Positions 1 to 7,780 are shown, numbered from the stretch's first letter. The stretch: 64,000 nucleotides of DNA from Solirubrobacteraceae bacterium (GCA_025449845.1 JANWIP010000020.1:62001-126000); one strand, 5' to 3'. Translations and numbers: made by a program. The notes: generated from the sequence alone by a model not told the origin.

Positions 1-237
1 GCCGGCGAATACGAACAGGGGGATCCGCTCGCCGAACGCCTCCACCGCTGGCAAGACCGCGCCGCCGTGGTGCTTCCGGCTCCAGTCGCTGAGGAGCTGC
101 GGATCGAGGAGCAGACGCGCCTCCTTGAGCAGACGCTCCTTGACGTCATCCAGGCCAACCAAGCGGTCGTAGCGGTCCCCGGCACTTGGGTTAGGGAACT
201 TCTGGGCGGGGTCGAAGAGGTCGGTAGGTTCGGTCAT
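1..237 (-). CDS. TRIP13/Pch2-like AAA+ ATPase of type III CBASS (Cap6-like), N-terminus only, truncated by window edge
   Basis: Reverse-strand open frame from ATG at 237..235 reads MTEPTDLFDPAQKFPNPSAGDRYDRLVGLDDVKERLLKEARLLLDPQLLSDWSRKHHGGAVLPAVEAFGERIPLFVFAG and runs off position 1 just where a Walker A would begin. ATGA overlap with the HORMA gene. Not in the ORF track because it has no stop in the window. Confidence 0.8.
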   Translation of the reverse strand, partial: MTEPTDLFDPAQKFPNPSAGDRYDRLVGLDDVKERLLKEARLLLDPQLLSDWSRKHHGGAVLPAVEAFGERIPLFVFAG

Positions 238-743
238 GCAGGCACGAACCGCCGCCGCCGAAGACCCGTCCCCGCAGCCGCGTAGCTTCGGTCTTCAGCG
301 ATCCAGCGCCCTTCCCCGTCGATCGGGGCGTAGCCAAAGACCCGCCGGACCGGCATCCTCGCCTTAAAGGCTTCTCGCTGCAGCTGCGGCAGGCGACCAA
401 AAGCCTCGGACCGCTTCAGGAAGTTGAACGGCGACGCGCCCTCAACATCGACGTCCGCCGGGACGCCACCGGCTCGCGAGTCCGAGAGCGACCCATCGGC
501 AAGCACCTCGTAGTAGAGCGTGAACAGGCGGCGCCCATTGCGCTTGAAGCCGATCTCGAAGCTGTAGAGGTAACTCTCCATGAGATGCTGCGCAAGCTCC
601 TCAAGGTAGTTGTCGATCTCCGACTCGTCGGGGTAGCCGTAGTAGCGGTTCATCTGCCGCATGTCGGCGGCGACGCGCGAGCAGACGTGTCGTGCGTGCG
701 CGATGGTGAAACTCTCGGATTCGCTGTATGAGCCGCTCATCAC
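234..743 (-). CDS. Bacterial HORMA-domain protein of type III CBASS (Cap7-like)
   Basis: 169 aa; SFTIAHARHVCSRVAADM..RYYGYPDESEIDNYLEELAQHL..SYLYSFEIGFKRNGRRLFTLYYEV..DSRAGGVPADVDVEGASPFNFL resembles the bacterial HORMA family. Sits directly between a CD-NTase and a TRIP13-like gene. Confidence 0.82.
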   Translation of the reverse strand: MMSGSYSESESFTIAHARHVCSRVAADMRQMNRYYGYPDESEIDNYLEELAQHLMESYLYSFEIGFKRNGRRLFTLYYEVLADGSLSDSRAGGVPADVDVEGASPFNFLKRSEAFGRLPQLQREAFKARMPVRRVFGYAPIDGEGRWIAEDRSYAAAGTGLRRRRFVPA

Positions 744-1724
744 CTACACCGCCCCCGCGAAGGTAGGGCCGAGGATGTCGCGCCAGTCTTCGACCGAGCG
801 CCCCTTGGTGGTGGCGTAGGCGGCGTCCGCCAGTGCGTCGTGCGCCTCCGCAGCGGCGGTCACGATCATCTCGCGGTGCGTGCGCGTGTATGAGGCGGCG
901 ACGTTGTTCTCCGGGTTGACGGGGTCGAGGATTTCGATCTCCGCGCCGGTCAGCGCCGGCAGGTCGCTGGCGGAGCAGAAGTCCGTGAAGGCGATGCGCT
1001 CCTCCAGGCCGGTGGTCACGATGTAGGTGAAGAACGCCTCCATCGCCTCCACGTAGTCGGCGAAGTCGGTGCCGATGTCATGGACGTGAGCGCAGATCAG
1101 CTCGATCATGAAGGACTTGAAGCGGAAAGACGGATCGCGATCCTTCAGCTCGCCCGCCCACCACTTGAGCAGACGGATCACCTGCGCGAAGTCGCTCGGC
1201 GAGACCCCCTTACGCGCGCGGATGAAGTCGAGGTGCCGGGAGACGCTGGTGATCACGCGCTCGCCGGTGTCCCTGACGATCAGGCAGCCGACGTTGTCGG
1301 GCTCTCCGTCGTAGAGGACGGGCACCACGTCAACGTCCACGAGGTTGTGGGAGCGAAACCGGAGCTGGACGCAGTGATCCCGCAGCTCGAACTGATCGTC
1401 GTCCAGTTGCGGGTAGCACTCTCGCAGGCGGTCCCTCAGCCATTCGACCAGCTCCTCGTCGCCTTCGGGCACGGCGGCGCGCTTTACGTACACAGCGAGG
1501 TCCATGTCACCGATCGTGGCGAGCGCCGTGCCCTTGGCCACGCTCCCCGCGTTGAGCATCTTCACGAGCGCGTAGCCGGGGTGGGCGGCGATGTGCTTCT
1601 CCAGCTTGTCCCGCATCCGGTTGCCCTGTTCGCGGTATTCCCGCGCCCGCTGGGGTGAGAGGTTCACGTGGTCCTGTGCGAACTTGGCCAAGACCTCATG
1701 CTGTACGTATCGCGCGATCGTCAT
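744..1724 (-). CDS. CBASS CD-NTase (cGAS/DncV-like nucleotidyltransferase)
   Basis: MTIARYVQHEVLAKF...; NTase motif GSVAKGTALATIGDMDLAVYV plus second Asp VDVDVVPVL; RLLKWWAGE helical region. Start placed at ATG 1724, shorter than the tracked ORF. TAG is followed directly by the HORMA start. Confidence 0.85.
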   Translation of the reverse strand: MTIARYVQHEVLAKFAQDHVNLSPQRAREYREQGNRMRDKLEKHIAAHPGYALVKMLNAGSVAKGTALATIGDMDLAVYVKRAAVPEGDEELVEWLRDRLRECYPQLDDDQFELRDHCVQLRFRSHNLVDVDVVPVLYDGEPDNVGCLIVRDTGERVITSVSRHLDFIRARKGVSPSDFAQVIRLLKWWAGELKDRDPSFRFKSFMIELICAHVHDIGTDFADYVEAMEAFFTYIVTTGLEERIAFTDFCSASDLPALTGAEIEILDPVNPENNVAASYTRTHREMIVTAAAEAHDALADAAYATTKGRSVEDWRDILGPTFAGAV

Positions 1725-1781
1725 CTGGGGTTGAGCCCTCCTTTTGGCTGCGCACCGGTGGTACGCATTGAAGGTTTTGCA

Positions 1782-1797
1782 GTTCTTGATCGAGAAC
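1782..1797. promoter_or_regulatory. Candidate CapH operator: GTTCTTGATCGAGAAC near-palindrome
   Basis: GTTCT-TGATCG-AGAAC in the 122-bp intergenic region between the divergent CD-NTase and CapP-like genes. Confidence 0.45.
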
Positions 1798-1846
1798 GCT
1801 AGCAGGTCCGCTGCCAGGCATGCAAGAATGAGATCTCGCGTTCGCA

Positions 1847-2686
1847 ATGGAGAACCACCAATTATCGCTGTTCGAGCAGCTCAGCCAAGTAGAGCCGGCC
1901 TTGACCGACGAGGCGATCGTGCGGCGCCTATGCGAGGATCTGCTCGACCAGTCCGCCACCGTTCCTCCGGTGCCCGTCGAGCTGCTGGCATCCATGCGGG
2001 GCATCGCGCGCGTCGAGCAGCGGCTGCAGCCGTGGTCCGGCGTCCTGGCGCCAACGCGCGATGGGTTCGTTGTCGGCGTGCGCGCGCTGGACGGGATCGA
2101 GCGGCAGCGCTTCACGATCCTGCATGAGGTAGGCCACACCCTGCTCCCAGGCTTCGCGGACACCCGCCAGTACCGCTGCAGCGGCCCGAAGACCAGAGAG
2201 GAGCAGCTCTGCGACATCGCGGCGAGTGAGCTGCTGCTGCCCCGGCGGTTCTTCGTGCGCGATCTCCTCCACGCTGCACCGGGGCTGGCGGGCATCGAGA
2301 CGCTCGCCGGGTCCTACGAGGCCAGTATCGAGGCCACCGCGCTGCGTGCTGTTGACCTTCAACGGGACGCCGCTATGCTGCTCGTCTTCAGGGTGGCGCA
2401 CAAGCCATCCGAGAGGGGCCACGAGGACGAGTGTGAGCCCAAGTTGCGTATGTCCTGGTCACACGGGCGTGGTGACTGGCCGTACATGCGCCAGCACAAG
2501 TCGGTCAGCGACGGCTCACCAATCCAGCGCGCCCACGAGGGGGAGCTGGTCGACGAGGTGGGCACGCTCGGCGACCTGGCCAGCACCGAGTCTGGGCCAG
2601 TCAGAATCAGCGCGCGGCGCTACGGCAGCGGCGGACGGGTATTAGCGCTGCTCACGCCCGCGCGCACAAGGGGAGGTTCGACATGA
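1847..2686 (+). CDS. ImmA/IrrE-family zinc metallopeptidase (CapP-like CBASS activator)
   Basis: RFTILHEVGHTLLPG (HExxH) and EEQLCDIAASELLLP (distal metal-ligand region); C-terminal extension KLRMSWSHGRGDWPYMRQHKSV; divergent from CBASS; ATGA overlap with the XRE gene. Confidence 0.85.
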   Translation: MENHQLSLFEQLSQVEPALTDEAIVRRLCEDLLDQSATVPPVPVELLASMRGIARVEQRLQPWSGVLAPTRDGFVVGVRALDGIERQRFTILHEVGHTLLPGFADTRQYRCSGPKTREEQLCDIAASELLLPRRFFVRDLLHAAPGLAGIETLAGSYEASIEATALRAVDLQRDAAMLLVFRVAHKPSERGHEDECEPKLRMSWSHGRGDWPYMRQHKSVSDGSPIQRAHEGELVDEVGTLGDLASTESGPVRISARRYGSGGRVLALLTPARTRGGST

Positions 2687-3096
2687 ACAAATCCAGTGAA
2701 ACCATCGGTGAGCGCATCAAGCGCTTCCGCGAAGAGCGAGGCCTGAGCCCGAGCGAGCTGGCCGAGCAGGCCGGCGTCGCGAAGAGCTACCTATCAACCC
2801 TCGAACACGAGGATCAGACAAAGAATGTGCGCAGGCCATCGGCGGACACCCTCTACCGGATCGCCAGTGCGCTGGGCGTGGCGATGTCCGACTTGCTGGG
2901 CAGGCCCGTGATCACCGCTGCCCAGGCAGGCAGCCGACCTCCCAGCCTCGTCGAGTTCGCCAAGAGCCGGAGCCTCCCCGAGGCCGACGTGGAGATGCTG
3001 GCAAACATCAGATTCCGAGGTGAGGAGCCCAAGACTCCGGAGCGCTGGGAGTTCATCTACCAGGCGATTAAGAACAGCGCTCCCATGGACCGCTAA
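2683..3096 (+). CDS. XRE-family HTH transcriptional repressor (CapH-like)
   Basis: ERIKRFREERGLSPSELAEQAGVAKSYLSTLEHEDQTKNVRRPSADTLYRIASALGVAMSDLL, a SinR-type HTH; coupled to the peptidase gene. Confidence 0.87.
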   Translation: MNKSSETIGERIKRFREERGLSPSELAEQAGVAKSYLSTLEHEDQTKNVRRPSADTLYRIASALGVAMSDLLGRPVITAAQAGSRPPSLVEFAKSRSLPEADVEMLANIRFRGEEPKTPERWEFIYQAIKNSAPMDR

Positions 3097-3366: not shown

Positions 3367-4245
3367 CTAGTGTCGCCTGGACTCCGTGCGTGAGTCTCGT
3401 GCTTTGCGGAGGCGTCCTGCAAGTCCGTTGAGAAACAAACCGATGAGGACTATCCCTGCCAGCGCCTCGACCGCGACCGATATACGAGCCGCCTGGGATA
3501 CGGGCGTCAGATCACCCAACCCTAAAGTGGTGATTGTCGTGGCACTGAAGTAGAACATGCGCCACCACAGTCCAGATGCGTAGGACGGATCTCCCTCCAT
3601 AGCCCGGTATAAGCGCACAATCTTGTCGTCTAGGCGCTTCGACACAGCTAGCAGCCCTTCACTAGAGGGCGGCTCGGCAGCAGGTCGAGAGAGGAAGGGG
3701 AAAAGGATGGAGACAGGCGGCCTAGTGATGTCACGAAAGGTTGTAGGACCGCCGTTTGATTCTGTGAGCGAGACAGGGTAACCGACTTCCACCGCTCCGC
3801 TGGGTTCTGGGATTCCGGGTGGCGAGATCGCGAGATAGGATTCGTCCGGAATAACTTGAACCCACTCCCGGACGCCGCCGCCAAATTCGCCAGATACCGC
3901 TGACTGGCCAGTGAATTCGCCTTCAATGTCCAGCAAGAGCTGCTGATTATTCGTGTGGCGGATCGCAGCGACGTGGATGGTGCCAGGAACCAGCCACTCG
4001 TGTGCCACGCCACCGTTGATAGAGGTGCTCCAGTGGATCTCGGTGGCTCTCGCGCGCACCGGCGGCGTCAATTCGCGCGCCAGACTTCTTGCATCCCGTT
4101 CGAGCGACGACTCGAACTCAATGTTCGAGTCGTGGAAGCTTTTTTCTGGCTGAAACGCGTACCATGTCGCGAAGATCGGCGCCAGCACCAGGTACAGCAC
4201 GGCCCACTTCAGCGGCGAGGCTCGTAACCGATCCAAGGCCCGCAT
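3367..4245 (-). CDS. Two-TM potassium-channel-like ion channel with large N-terminal extracytoplasmic domain
   Basis: N-terminal TM (LKWAVLYLVLAPIFATWYAF), ~190-aa soluble region, then pore helix/filter FYFSATTITTLGLGDLTPVS and a final TM helix. Confidence 0.75.
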   Translation of the reverse strand: MRALDRLRASPLKWAVLYLVLAPIFATWYAFQPEKSFHDSNIEFESSLERDARSLARELTPPVRARATEIHWSTSINGGVAHEWLVPGTIHVAAIRHTNNQQLLLDIEGEFTGQSAVSGEFGGGVREWVQVIPDESYLAISPPGIPEPSGAVEVGYPVSLTESNGGPTTFRDITRPPVSILFPFLSRPAAEPPSSEGLLAVSKRLDDKIVRLYRAMEGDPSYASGLWWRMFYFSATTITTLGLGDLTPVSQAARISVAVEALAGIVLIGLFLNGLAGRLRKARDSRTESRRH

Positions 4246-5926: not shown

Positions 5927-5999
5927 GGCGAGATAGCTCAGCTGGTAGAGCACGGCACTGAAAATGCCGGTGTCGGCGGTTCAAGTCCGCCTCTCGCCA
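5927..5999 (+). tRNA. tRNA-Phe (GAA)
   Basis: Full cloverleaf: GGCGAGA acceptor, GCTC/GAGC D-stem, CGGCA-CTGAAAA-TGCCG anticodon arm, GGCGG-TTCAAGT-CCGCC T-arm, TCTCGCC, A. Confidence 0.95.
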
Positions 6000-6202
6000 T
6001 CCATCCACCGAGGGTCAGCAACGGTTGCTGGCTACTCGGACCGGGCACGAGCGAGTCCTTGAGGCCGCGCCTAACAGCGGCCCGAAATTCCTTCGGGGGC
6101 AAACCAGTGGTGTGCCCGACGAGAAGGTATGGAGAGTAGCCGCCCACCGAAAGACCGCCCGCGGCACCTGAGGCCGAGCAACTCGACCCTGGCCGATATC
6201 TG

Positions 6203-7780
6203 ATGGCCAGGCCCTTGACAGGCAGTATCACCCAAGAAGCTCAGGCAGACGATACGCTGGCTTTCCGGCTGCGATTTACAGTCCACGGGTCCCGCCAGAC
6301 GATCGTGCTGCACGAACGTCGCGTGTGTGAGTGTGGATGTGGCGGAGGGTGGACTGAGCGCACGGCCAGTGCCGAGCTTCGAAGCATCATCACGGCGGTC
6401 ACCGCGGGGTTATGGGAGCGTCCTGCCAGGGCCGCTCGCACCAGCAAGAAGCGAATGCCAACCTTTCATAAGTACGCCTCCTACTGGCTGCAAGCCAGGA
6501 TGGAAGGCGTCCTTGGCGGCAGACCCTTGAGCCCCAGCTCATGCAAGGACTACCGCTGGAGGCTCGGCCATCTGCTGGCGTTCTTCGGGCACTACCGGCT
6601 CGATCAGATCAGCAGCGAACTGTGCCTTGCCTTCAAAGCGCACAAGCTCAGAGAGTCACGCGAGCTCGCCCAAGCCATCGCAGCTGGCGCCGATCTCCGC
6701 GACGAGCGCGGGCGCCGGATCAGGCCAGTCGGTGCGTCCTCGCTCAAGAAGCTCCTCGACATGCTCGCGGCGATCATGCAGGACGCCCTCGAAGACGGGT
6801 ACATCACCGTCAATCCCGCGCGCGGCAGGCGGATGAGGATCGACATCCCCAAACCACGCCGGAGCGTCTTGGAGCGCGACGAGCTGATCGCCCTGGAAGA
6901 TGCCGCCAGCGACCAGGACCCCTCGCTGGCCACCTATGCCAGGGCATACCGCAACGCCCCCGCAGACTCCACCCAGGCAGCCGTTGCCCGCGCACTCTCC
7001 CACGGCATGCGCCCCACCCAGATCGTGCAGGCACTCGGGCTACCGAAGGCGACGGTCGGGTATCACTGCGCCAAGATCGACCATCTGGCAGGCAACTACG
7101 TCGGCCGCAAGGCGATCGTCCACACGCTCGGGCGATCAGGGATACGGGTCAGCGAGCTGTGCGACCTCAAGATCGGCCAGCTCACCCTGAACGGGGTGGA
7201 AGGCTCCCGGTTCGAGATCCCCGACGCCAAAACCGACGCCGGGATCAGAGCAGTCGAGATGACCGACCAGCACGTAGAGGCAATCACCGAGCACATCGAC
7301 CGGCTACAGCGAGCCGGCTTCGACACCGGCCCCCAGGCGCCGCTGTTTCCCAACCGTCGCGGCCGGAAAATGTCCCGCCAGCGCGTGTGGGAACTCCTCG
7401 TCGCGGCGAAAGAGCTGGCCGACGAGCGCATGCGCTCCCGCGGGCTACCGCCCCTTCCAACCGTGACCCCGCACACACTGCGCCGCACCTACATATCGAT
7501 CGCCCTACTCGCGAACAACTTCGACATCAAGTGGGTCATGAGCCAAGTCGGCCACGCCGACTCCACCATGACCCTCGATATCTACGCCCAGCTACAACAG
7601 CGCGTCAACCGCACGCACGGCGCCGAGATCGACCGCCTGATGCAAGAAGCCCGCACGCACCTGTACCGCGACGACAACGACGCAGACCCGTCCGCGAAAA
7701 CATACCCAGCAGCCGTTTTGGACGAAGTTTTGGACGGAACATCAAACGAACCCCCCGCCACACGCAAGGAACCCCCCTAA
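6203..7780 (+). CDS. Tyrosine recombinase/integrase with HTH-like insertion
   Basis: Catalytic motifs SGIRVSELCDLKIGQL (Arg I), PHTLRRTYISIALLANNFDIKWVMSQVGHADSTMTLDIYAQL (HxLR..GH..Y). Immediately downstream of tRNA-Phe. Confidence 0.93.
   Translation: MARPLTGSITQEAQADDTLAFRLRFTVHGSRQTIVLHERRVCECGCGGGWTERTASAELRSIITAVTAGLWERPARAARTSKKRMPTFHKYASYWLQARMEGVLGGRPLSPSSCKDYRWRLGHLLAFFGHYRLDQISSELCLAFKAHKLRESRELAQAIAAGADLRDERGRRIRPVGASSLKKLLDMLAAIMQDALEDGYITVNPARGRRMRIDIPKPRRSVLERDELIALEDAASDQDPSLATYARAYRNAPADSTQAAVARALSHGMRPTQIVQALGLPKATVGYHCAKIDHLAGNYVGRKAIVHTLGRSGIRVSELCDLKIGQLTLNGVEGSRFEIPDAKTDAGIRAVEMTDQHVEAITEHIDRLQRAGFDTGPQAPLFPNRRGRKMSRQRVWELLVAAKELADERMRSRGLPPLPTVTPHTLRRTYISIALLANNFDIKWVMSQVGHADSTMTLDIYAQLQQRVNRTHGAEIDRLMQEARTHLYRDDNDADPSAKTYPAAVLDEVLDGTSNEPPATRKEPP

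Follow-up and report, generated by a model that had tools for sequence, protein, structure and literature searches.

Three tightly coupled reverse-strand genes at the left end of the DNA studied here diverge from a metallopeptidase gene and a repressor gene, and the question raised by this arrangement is whether the latter pair acts as a DNA-damage switch for an immune operon. The window (64,000 nucleotides of a Solirubrobacteraceae genome, C20:62001-126000) was extended to the left with C20:50001-66000 (L002), the coordinates of which are offset by 12000 from those of the window. We regard it as very probable that the locus is a type III CBASS operon under a CapP/CapH damage switch, with the full mechanism proposed below.

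Gene content of the reverse-strand operon

The gene coordinates, strands and tight couplings given in the original prediction are right in the sequence (Table 1), and profile-HMM matches far above chance establish beyond doubt that these are genuine genes. The TAG stop codon of the CD-NTase gene (746-744) abuts a GTG at 743 and the next ATG lies at 740, either of which may be the HORMA start codon, and ATGA overlaps join HORMA to TRIP13 (237-234) and capP to capH (2683-2686). The CD-NTase itself most likely starts at ATG 1724, as a longer open reading frame from TTG 1847 gains no support from homologues. The remainder of TRIP13 and an effector had been expected beyond position 1, and both are found in the left extension, where the complete TRIP13 gene overlaps that of a TIR-SAVED protein by 8 bases.

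Table 1. Genes and predicted operators of the locus, in window coordinates unless prefixed L002.
Feature	Position	Strand	Remarks
CD-NTase, CdnC clade	744-1724	-	326 aa
Bacterial HORMA (Cap7), bacHORMA_1 family	234-743	-	169 aa
TRIP13/Pch2-like AAA+ (Cap6), N-terminal 79 aa	1-237	-	remainder left of window
CapP, M78/ImmA-IrrE metallopeptidase	1847-2686	+	HEVGH + C111
CapH, XRE-family repressor	2683-3096	+	137 aa, DdrO-like 5+3 helices
Predicted CapH operator 1, GTTCTTGATCGAGAAC	1782-1797		
Predicted CapH operator 2, GTTCGCAATGGAGAAC	1840-1855		overlaps capP start codon
Complete TRIP13	L002:11305-12237		310 aa
TIR-SAVED effector, predicted	L002:10086-11312		~408 aa

The CD-NTase matches the PADLOC Cyclase profile (3.6e-112) and NCBIfam CBASS_cyclase_a (374 bits against a cut-off of 200), and its best solved relative is CdnC of E. 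coli MS115-1 (PDB 6p80, 3.1e-89), with which it aligns through the GS and acidic residues of an intact catalytic set (GS...DMD...DVDVVP), so that it is predicted to be a cAAA synthase. The HORMA protein matches its PADLOC profile at 1.3e-47, Pfam PF18138 at 131 bits (cut-off 35.6) and the E. coli MS115-1 HORMA (PDB 6p8v_H) at 6e-24; HORMA1-type complexes require dsDNA (review, PMC10419184). For TRIP13, the PADLOC match improves from 5.9e-19 for the 79-residue fragment in the window to 3e-117 for the complete protein, which has the Walker A motif GDVGTGKT and the Walker B motif LLIDEAD and resembles solved bacterial Pch2/TRIP13 proteins (6pb3, 5e-94; AAA+ chain of 6p8v, 4e-82). Since the best solved relative of each core gene belongs to a characterised type III CBASS, we read the core as type III CBASS. 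An AAA+ domain with Walker motifs beyond position 1, structural relatives for the CD-NTase and HORMA, and an effector in the extended operon, on which the original prediction had staked this reading, are all found. These matches support an operon of CdnC, HORMA/Cap7, TRIP13/Cap6 and TIR-SAVED, that is, an intact CD-NTase with an adjoining HORMA, a TRIP13/Pch2 remodeller and an effector of a cyclic-nucleotide-sensing family.

The effector is assigned from PADLOC SAVED_TIR (7.6e-68) and Pfam SAVED (87.8 bits, 1e-24), the score for Pfam TIR_2 (18.3) lying below its cut-off of 28. It aligns end to end, over both the TIR and SAVED parts, with the Microbacterium ketosireducens TIR-SAVED structure 7qqk (9e-15), and the similarity is low (57.7 bits over 392 residues). 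Residue E81 aligns with E84 of 7qqk, which we take to be the catalytic glutamate. According to a review (PMC10419184), cAAA is the activator of NucC and cA3, the same molecule, that of TIR-SAVED; the latter binds cA3 and assembles into filaments with NADase activity. The closest relatives of the effector in the plasmid collection adjoin ThiF-family genes rather than the HORMA and TRIP13 genes found here, and we therefore infer the pairing with cAAA at this locus; by the same analogy, cyclic tri-AMP would be the second messenger and the TIR-SAVED protein would act as an NADase. Related CdnC-HORMA-TRIP13 loci in the same class have NucC or a Cap4-type SAVED nuclease as effector, so the effector slot behind this core is variable.

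The whole case is built on sequence from a draft genome of 92.6% completeness, and one might suppose from this that the operon is decayed or inactive, but this is hardly credible because the frames are all intact and coupled and the catalytic motifs of the CD-NTase, TRIP13, TIR domain and CapP are kept.

The divergent capP and capH genes

CapP (PADLOC capP, 2.2e-23) is an M78 peptidase with HEVGH (H93, E94, H97), the third ligand E119 and an extra active-site cysteine, C111, followed by a sensor-like C-terminal domain; the overlap of operator 2 with the capP start codon leaves some doubt about the exact start. In Foldseek searches, the AlphaFold model of CapP (pLDDT 92.4) finds its best PDB folds in PprI bound to ssDNA (8sln, 1.9e-12), IrrE and the CapP of Thauera sp. 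K11 (7t5t, 5.2e-11). C111 falls on the Thauera CapP cysteine in a profile alignment (native Thauera numbering C113, with HExxH at 96), a residue that Lau et al. reportedly described in 2022 as a zinc-site switch. CapH matches the PADLOC capH profile (1.4e-16), full-length DdrO (6jq1/6rnx, 2.9e-19) and the N-terminal domain of E. coli MS115-1 CapH (PDB 7t5u), and its AlphaFold model has five N-terminal and three C-terminal helices, as DdrO does. Foldseek TM-scores against full-length DdrO are modest (0.41-0.47), and the relative placement of the two CapH domains is therefore uncertain. In the model, the loop that joins helices 7 and 8 contains FRG 111-113, and an alignment of 21 CapH-like proteins has R112 in every member. 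IrrE cuts DdrO in the corresponding loop (PMC8072749), and CapH is predicted to be cleaved at or next to F111-R112. The gene next to capP thus encodes an XRE repressor with a DdrO-like C-terminal part, which by analogy with DdrO would be both dimerising and cleavable.

These likenesses to the Deinococcus PprI/IrrE-DdrO pair, namely an M78 peptidase with an ssDNA-binding fold and an XRE repressor with a C-terminal loop that is cut in DdrO and predicted to be cut in CapH, could also mean that CapH is a DdrO and CapP a PprI, and that the CBASS operon is one target of a wider damage regulon. The alignment of CapH with full-length DdrO and the rank of PprI and IrrE ahead of CapP among the fold matches speak for such a response, yet we consider it very unlikely. 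In the alignment PprI has no cysteine of the C111 type, and capP and capH, unlike the Deinococcus genes, are adjacent, linked to an immune operon from which they diverge, and preceded by a different operator. Moreover, in a genome search for the CapH operator and its near copies, the exact sequence of operator 1 occurs once; near matches are many, the four nearby variants examined all lie inside open reading frames, and a wider CapH regulon was set aside as improbable.

The predicted GTTC-N8-GAAC operator and proposed control of the operon

The divergent promoter contains two palindromes of the form GTTC-N8-GAAC, which are predicted to be CapH operators. They are not LexA-type SOS boxes, which read GAAC-N4-GTTC and have the half-sites in the opposite orientation. 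By a scan for CapP relatives and by genome searches, the order capP-capH was found in eight loci (the window, L042 and L048-L053). Seven of these have at least one exact site just upstream of capP; in the eighth, L042, the site is degenerate and present twice, at a spacing of 60 bp. The regions upstream of capP in the eight loci, 1260 bp together, contain 11 exact sites where the remaining sequence of these loci predicts 0.03, and about 10 of the 11 are independent as L052 and L053 are near-identical upstream of capP. E. coli, Proteus and Thauera K11 have the same half-sites in their MS115-1-type operons, where each stretch separating capH from cdnC contains exactly one site, GTTCGCTAT[A/T]CCGAAC. 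No site is present upstream of cdnC in 10 CdnC-type loci with another regulator or none (L163, L165-L170 and L019-L021), a comparison from which L018 was left out because its contig begins inside the gene. Within the loci examined, the operator thus separates CapHP-controlled from other CdnC operons, and it may help to find damage-inducible immune loci from sequence only.

Pairs of M78 and XRE genes are abundant, and the pair in the window might be of the ordinary ImmA/ImmR or toxin-antitoxin-like sort, standing beside the CBASS operon by chance without controlling it. In a comparison of 79 adjacent M78-XRE pairs, the HTH gene comes first in 71, and 70 of the 71 have neither an upstream operator nor a cysteine at +18 from HExxH; the single HTH-first pair with the motif (L043, from the same phylum, a CBASS whose effector is a phospholipase) also has no cysteine, and the idea that all HTH-M78 pairs are CapHP was accordingly rejected. 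The window's pair, in contrast, has both the CapHP cysteine and the GTTC-N8-GAAC operator in the promoter between the divergent operons, and six of the seven capP-first relatives adjoin other defence-type genes (Multi_ubiq/ThiF, SIR2, R-M, PLD-helicase and DUF4062). A chance neighbour is, as a result, unlikely. In both features, cysteine and operator, the window's pair thus agrees with characterised CapHP systems. Profile matches, folds, the active-site cysteine and the operator in common with the E. coli, Proteus and Thauera CapHP loci all support a CapP/CapH control module, as had been proposed; the identity of the module thus stands, and it has diverged less than the proposal implied, since the two features typical of E. 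coli and Thauera CapHP are present.

In relatives, CapHP is an ssDNA-triggered switch (PMC13373217; PMC10904395), and on this basis we propose that CapH bound to the two operators would hold down capP-capH as well as the CBASS operon. CapP would be activated by ssDNA arising from DNA damage or during phage replication, and would cut the C-terminal loop of CapH at F111-R112 or beside it. Once cut, CapH would lose the ability to dimerise on DNA, and repression of the two divergent operons would be lifted, making the CBASS operon inducible by DNA damage. The derepressed CBASS would still require its own phage signal, sensed via HORMA, for CdnC to be turned on. CdnC would then make cyclic tri-AMP, on which TIR-SAVED filaments would assemble and destroy NAD+, so that the infected cell would die and phage protection might follow, and TRIP13 would reset HORMA.

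The nearest known system is the type III CBASS of the E. coli MS115-1 type and of Thauera sp. K11 (CdnC-Cap7-Cap6-NucC with divergent capH-capP), with which the locus shares the core genes and their order, divergent CapH and CapP genes, a CapP cysteine at HExxH +17/+18, and GTTC-N8-GAAC in the promoter between the divergent operons. Identities to the E. coli plasmid copy are 46% for CdnC, 33% for HORMA, 48% for TRIP13, 29% over 103 aa for CapP and 43% over the HTH for CapH. The differences are that TIR-SAVED fills the effector slot, taken by NucC in E. coli and Thauera, that capP rather than capH comes first, that there are two operators instead of one, and that CapH, at 137 aa, is 30 aa longer than the 107-aa E. 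coli protein. The C-terminal half of the longer CapH aligns with DdrO, whereas the short E. coli CapH aligned over the HTH only. The parts are hence familiar and this is no new system; new details are the way they are combined, the capP-capH order and the operator in common with E. coli, and both the CapH/CapP damage switch and CdnC-type III CBASS are extended to an actinobacterial lineage.

Related loci and genomic surroundings

The capP-first loci may form a CapPH clade, mostly actinobacterial in our sample, that combines a DdrO-like CapH with the CapP cysteine and the E. coli/Thauera operator half-sites and lies beside CBASS, multi-ubiquitin/ThiF (Bub-like), SIR2, R-M and PLD-helicase loci, a proposal for and against which we find the balance even. 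If it is true, the clade would link the Deinococcus PprI-DdrO radiation response to the CapP-CapH immune switch, and with one portable operator damage-induced immunity would be predictable across phyla. One operator type across the defence loci of the capP-first clade agrees with the distribution of CapHP over immune operons that has been published, and extends it modestly. A search of phage records gave no CapP. In L042 (6448-12415), capP-capH has a DUF4062 gene on one side and, on the other, two large genes (390 and 511 aa) without a Pfam match, which makes this region a candidate for an uncharacterised damage-controlled defence locus.

Other peptidase-regulator arrangements were seen in passing. 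CapP relatives without the CapP cysteine occur at L043:3204-5627 and L044:7726-8915; the two loci have GTTCAACTACTCCGAAC in common near the divergent start, and the L043 pair, which diverges from a patatin/CD-NTase CBASS, keeps one GTTC-N8-GAAC site. At L020:10699-11571, an HTH-M78 fusion protein without GTTC-N8-GAAC occupies the CapHP position, divergent from CdnC-HORMA-TRIP13-NucC. In three alphaproteobacterial genera (L165:2077-4332, L168:2067-4332 and L169:2061-4321), an operon for a CopG-like regulator, GNAT, HTH and M78 proteins diverges from CdnC type III CBASS with SAVED effectors, and this four-gene operon is a possible alternative control module.

Around the locus, same-genus neighbours share no synteny. 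A two-TM ion-channel protein (Pfam Ion_trans_2) is encoded at window positions 3367-4245, convergent with capH, and nothing supports its membership of the CBASS. Window positions 5927-7780 hold a tRNA-Phe gene and, after it, the gene of a 525-aa tyrosine integrase that seems to carry an inserted HTH-like segment; beyond the CBASS/AbiE block, at L002:7459-7529, is a tRNA-Phe-like element, the 5' half of which is poor. These elements suggest a possible island with tentative ends, a search of the window and L002 for a repeated attachment site having found none. Downstream of the effector, after a gap of ~170 bp, are genes for AbiEi and for an AbiEii nucleotidyltransferase that has a WYL domain at its C-terminus (L002:7904-9915; C20:57904-59915), which belong to their own families and are probably a unit separate from the CBASS. 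AbiE-like genes also flank the CdnC CBASS of Agrobacterium vitis (L167:1644-3474).
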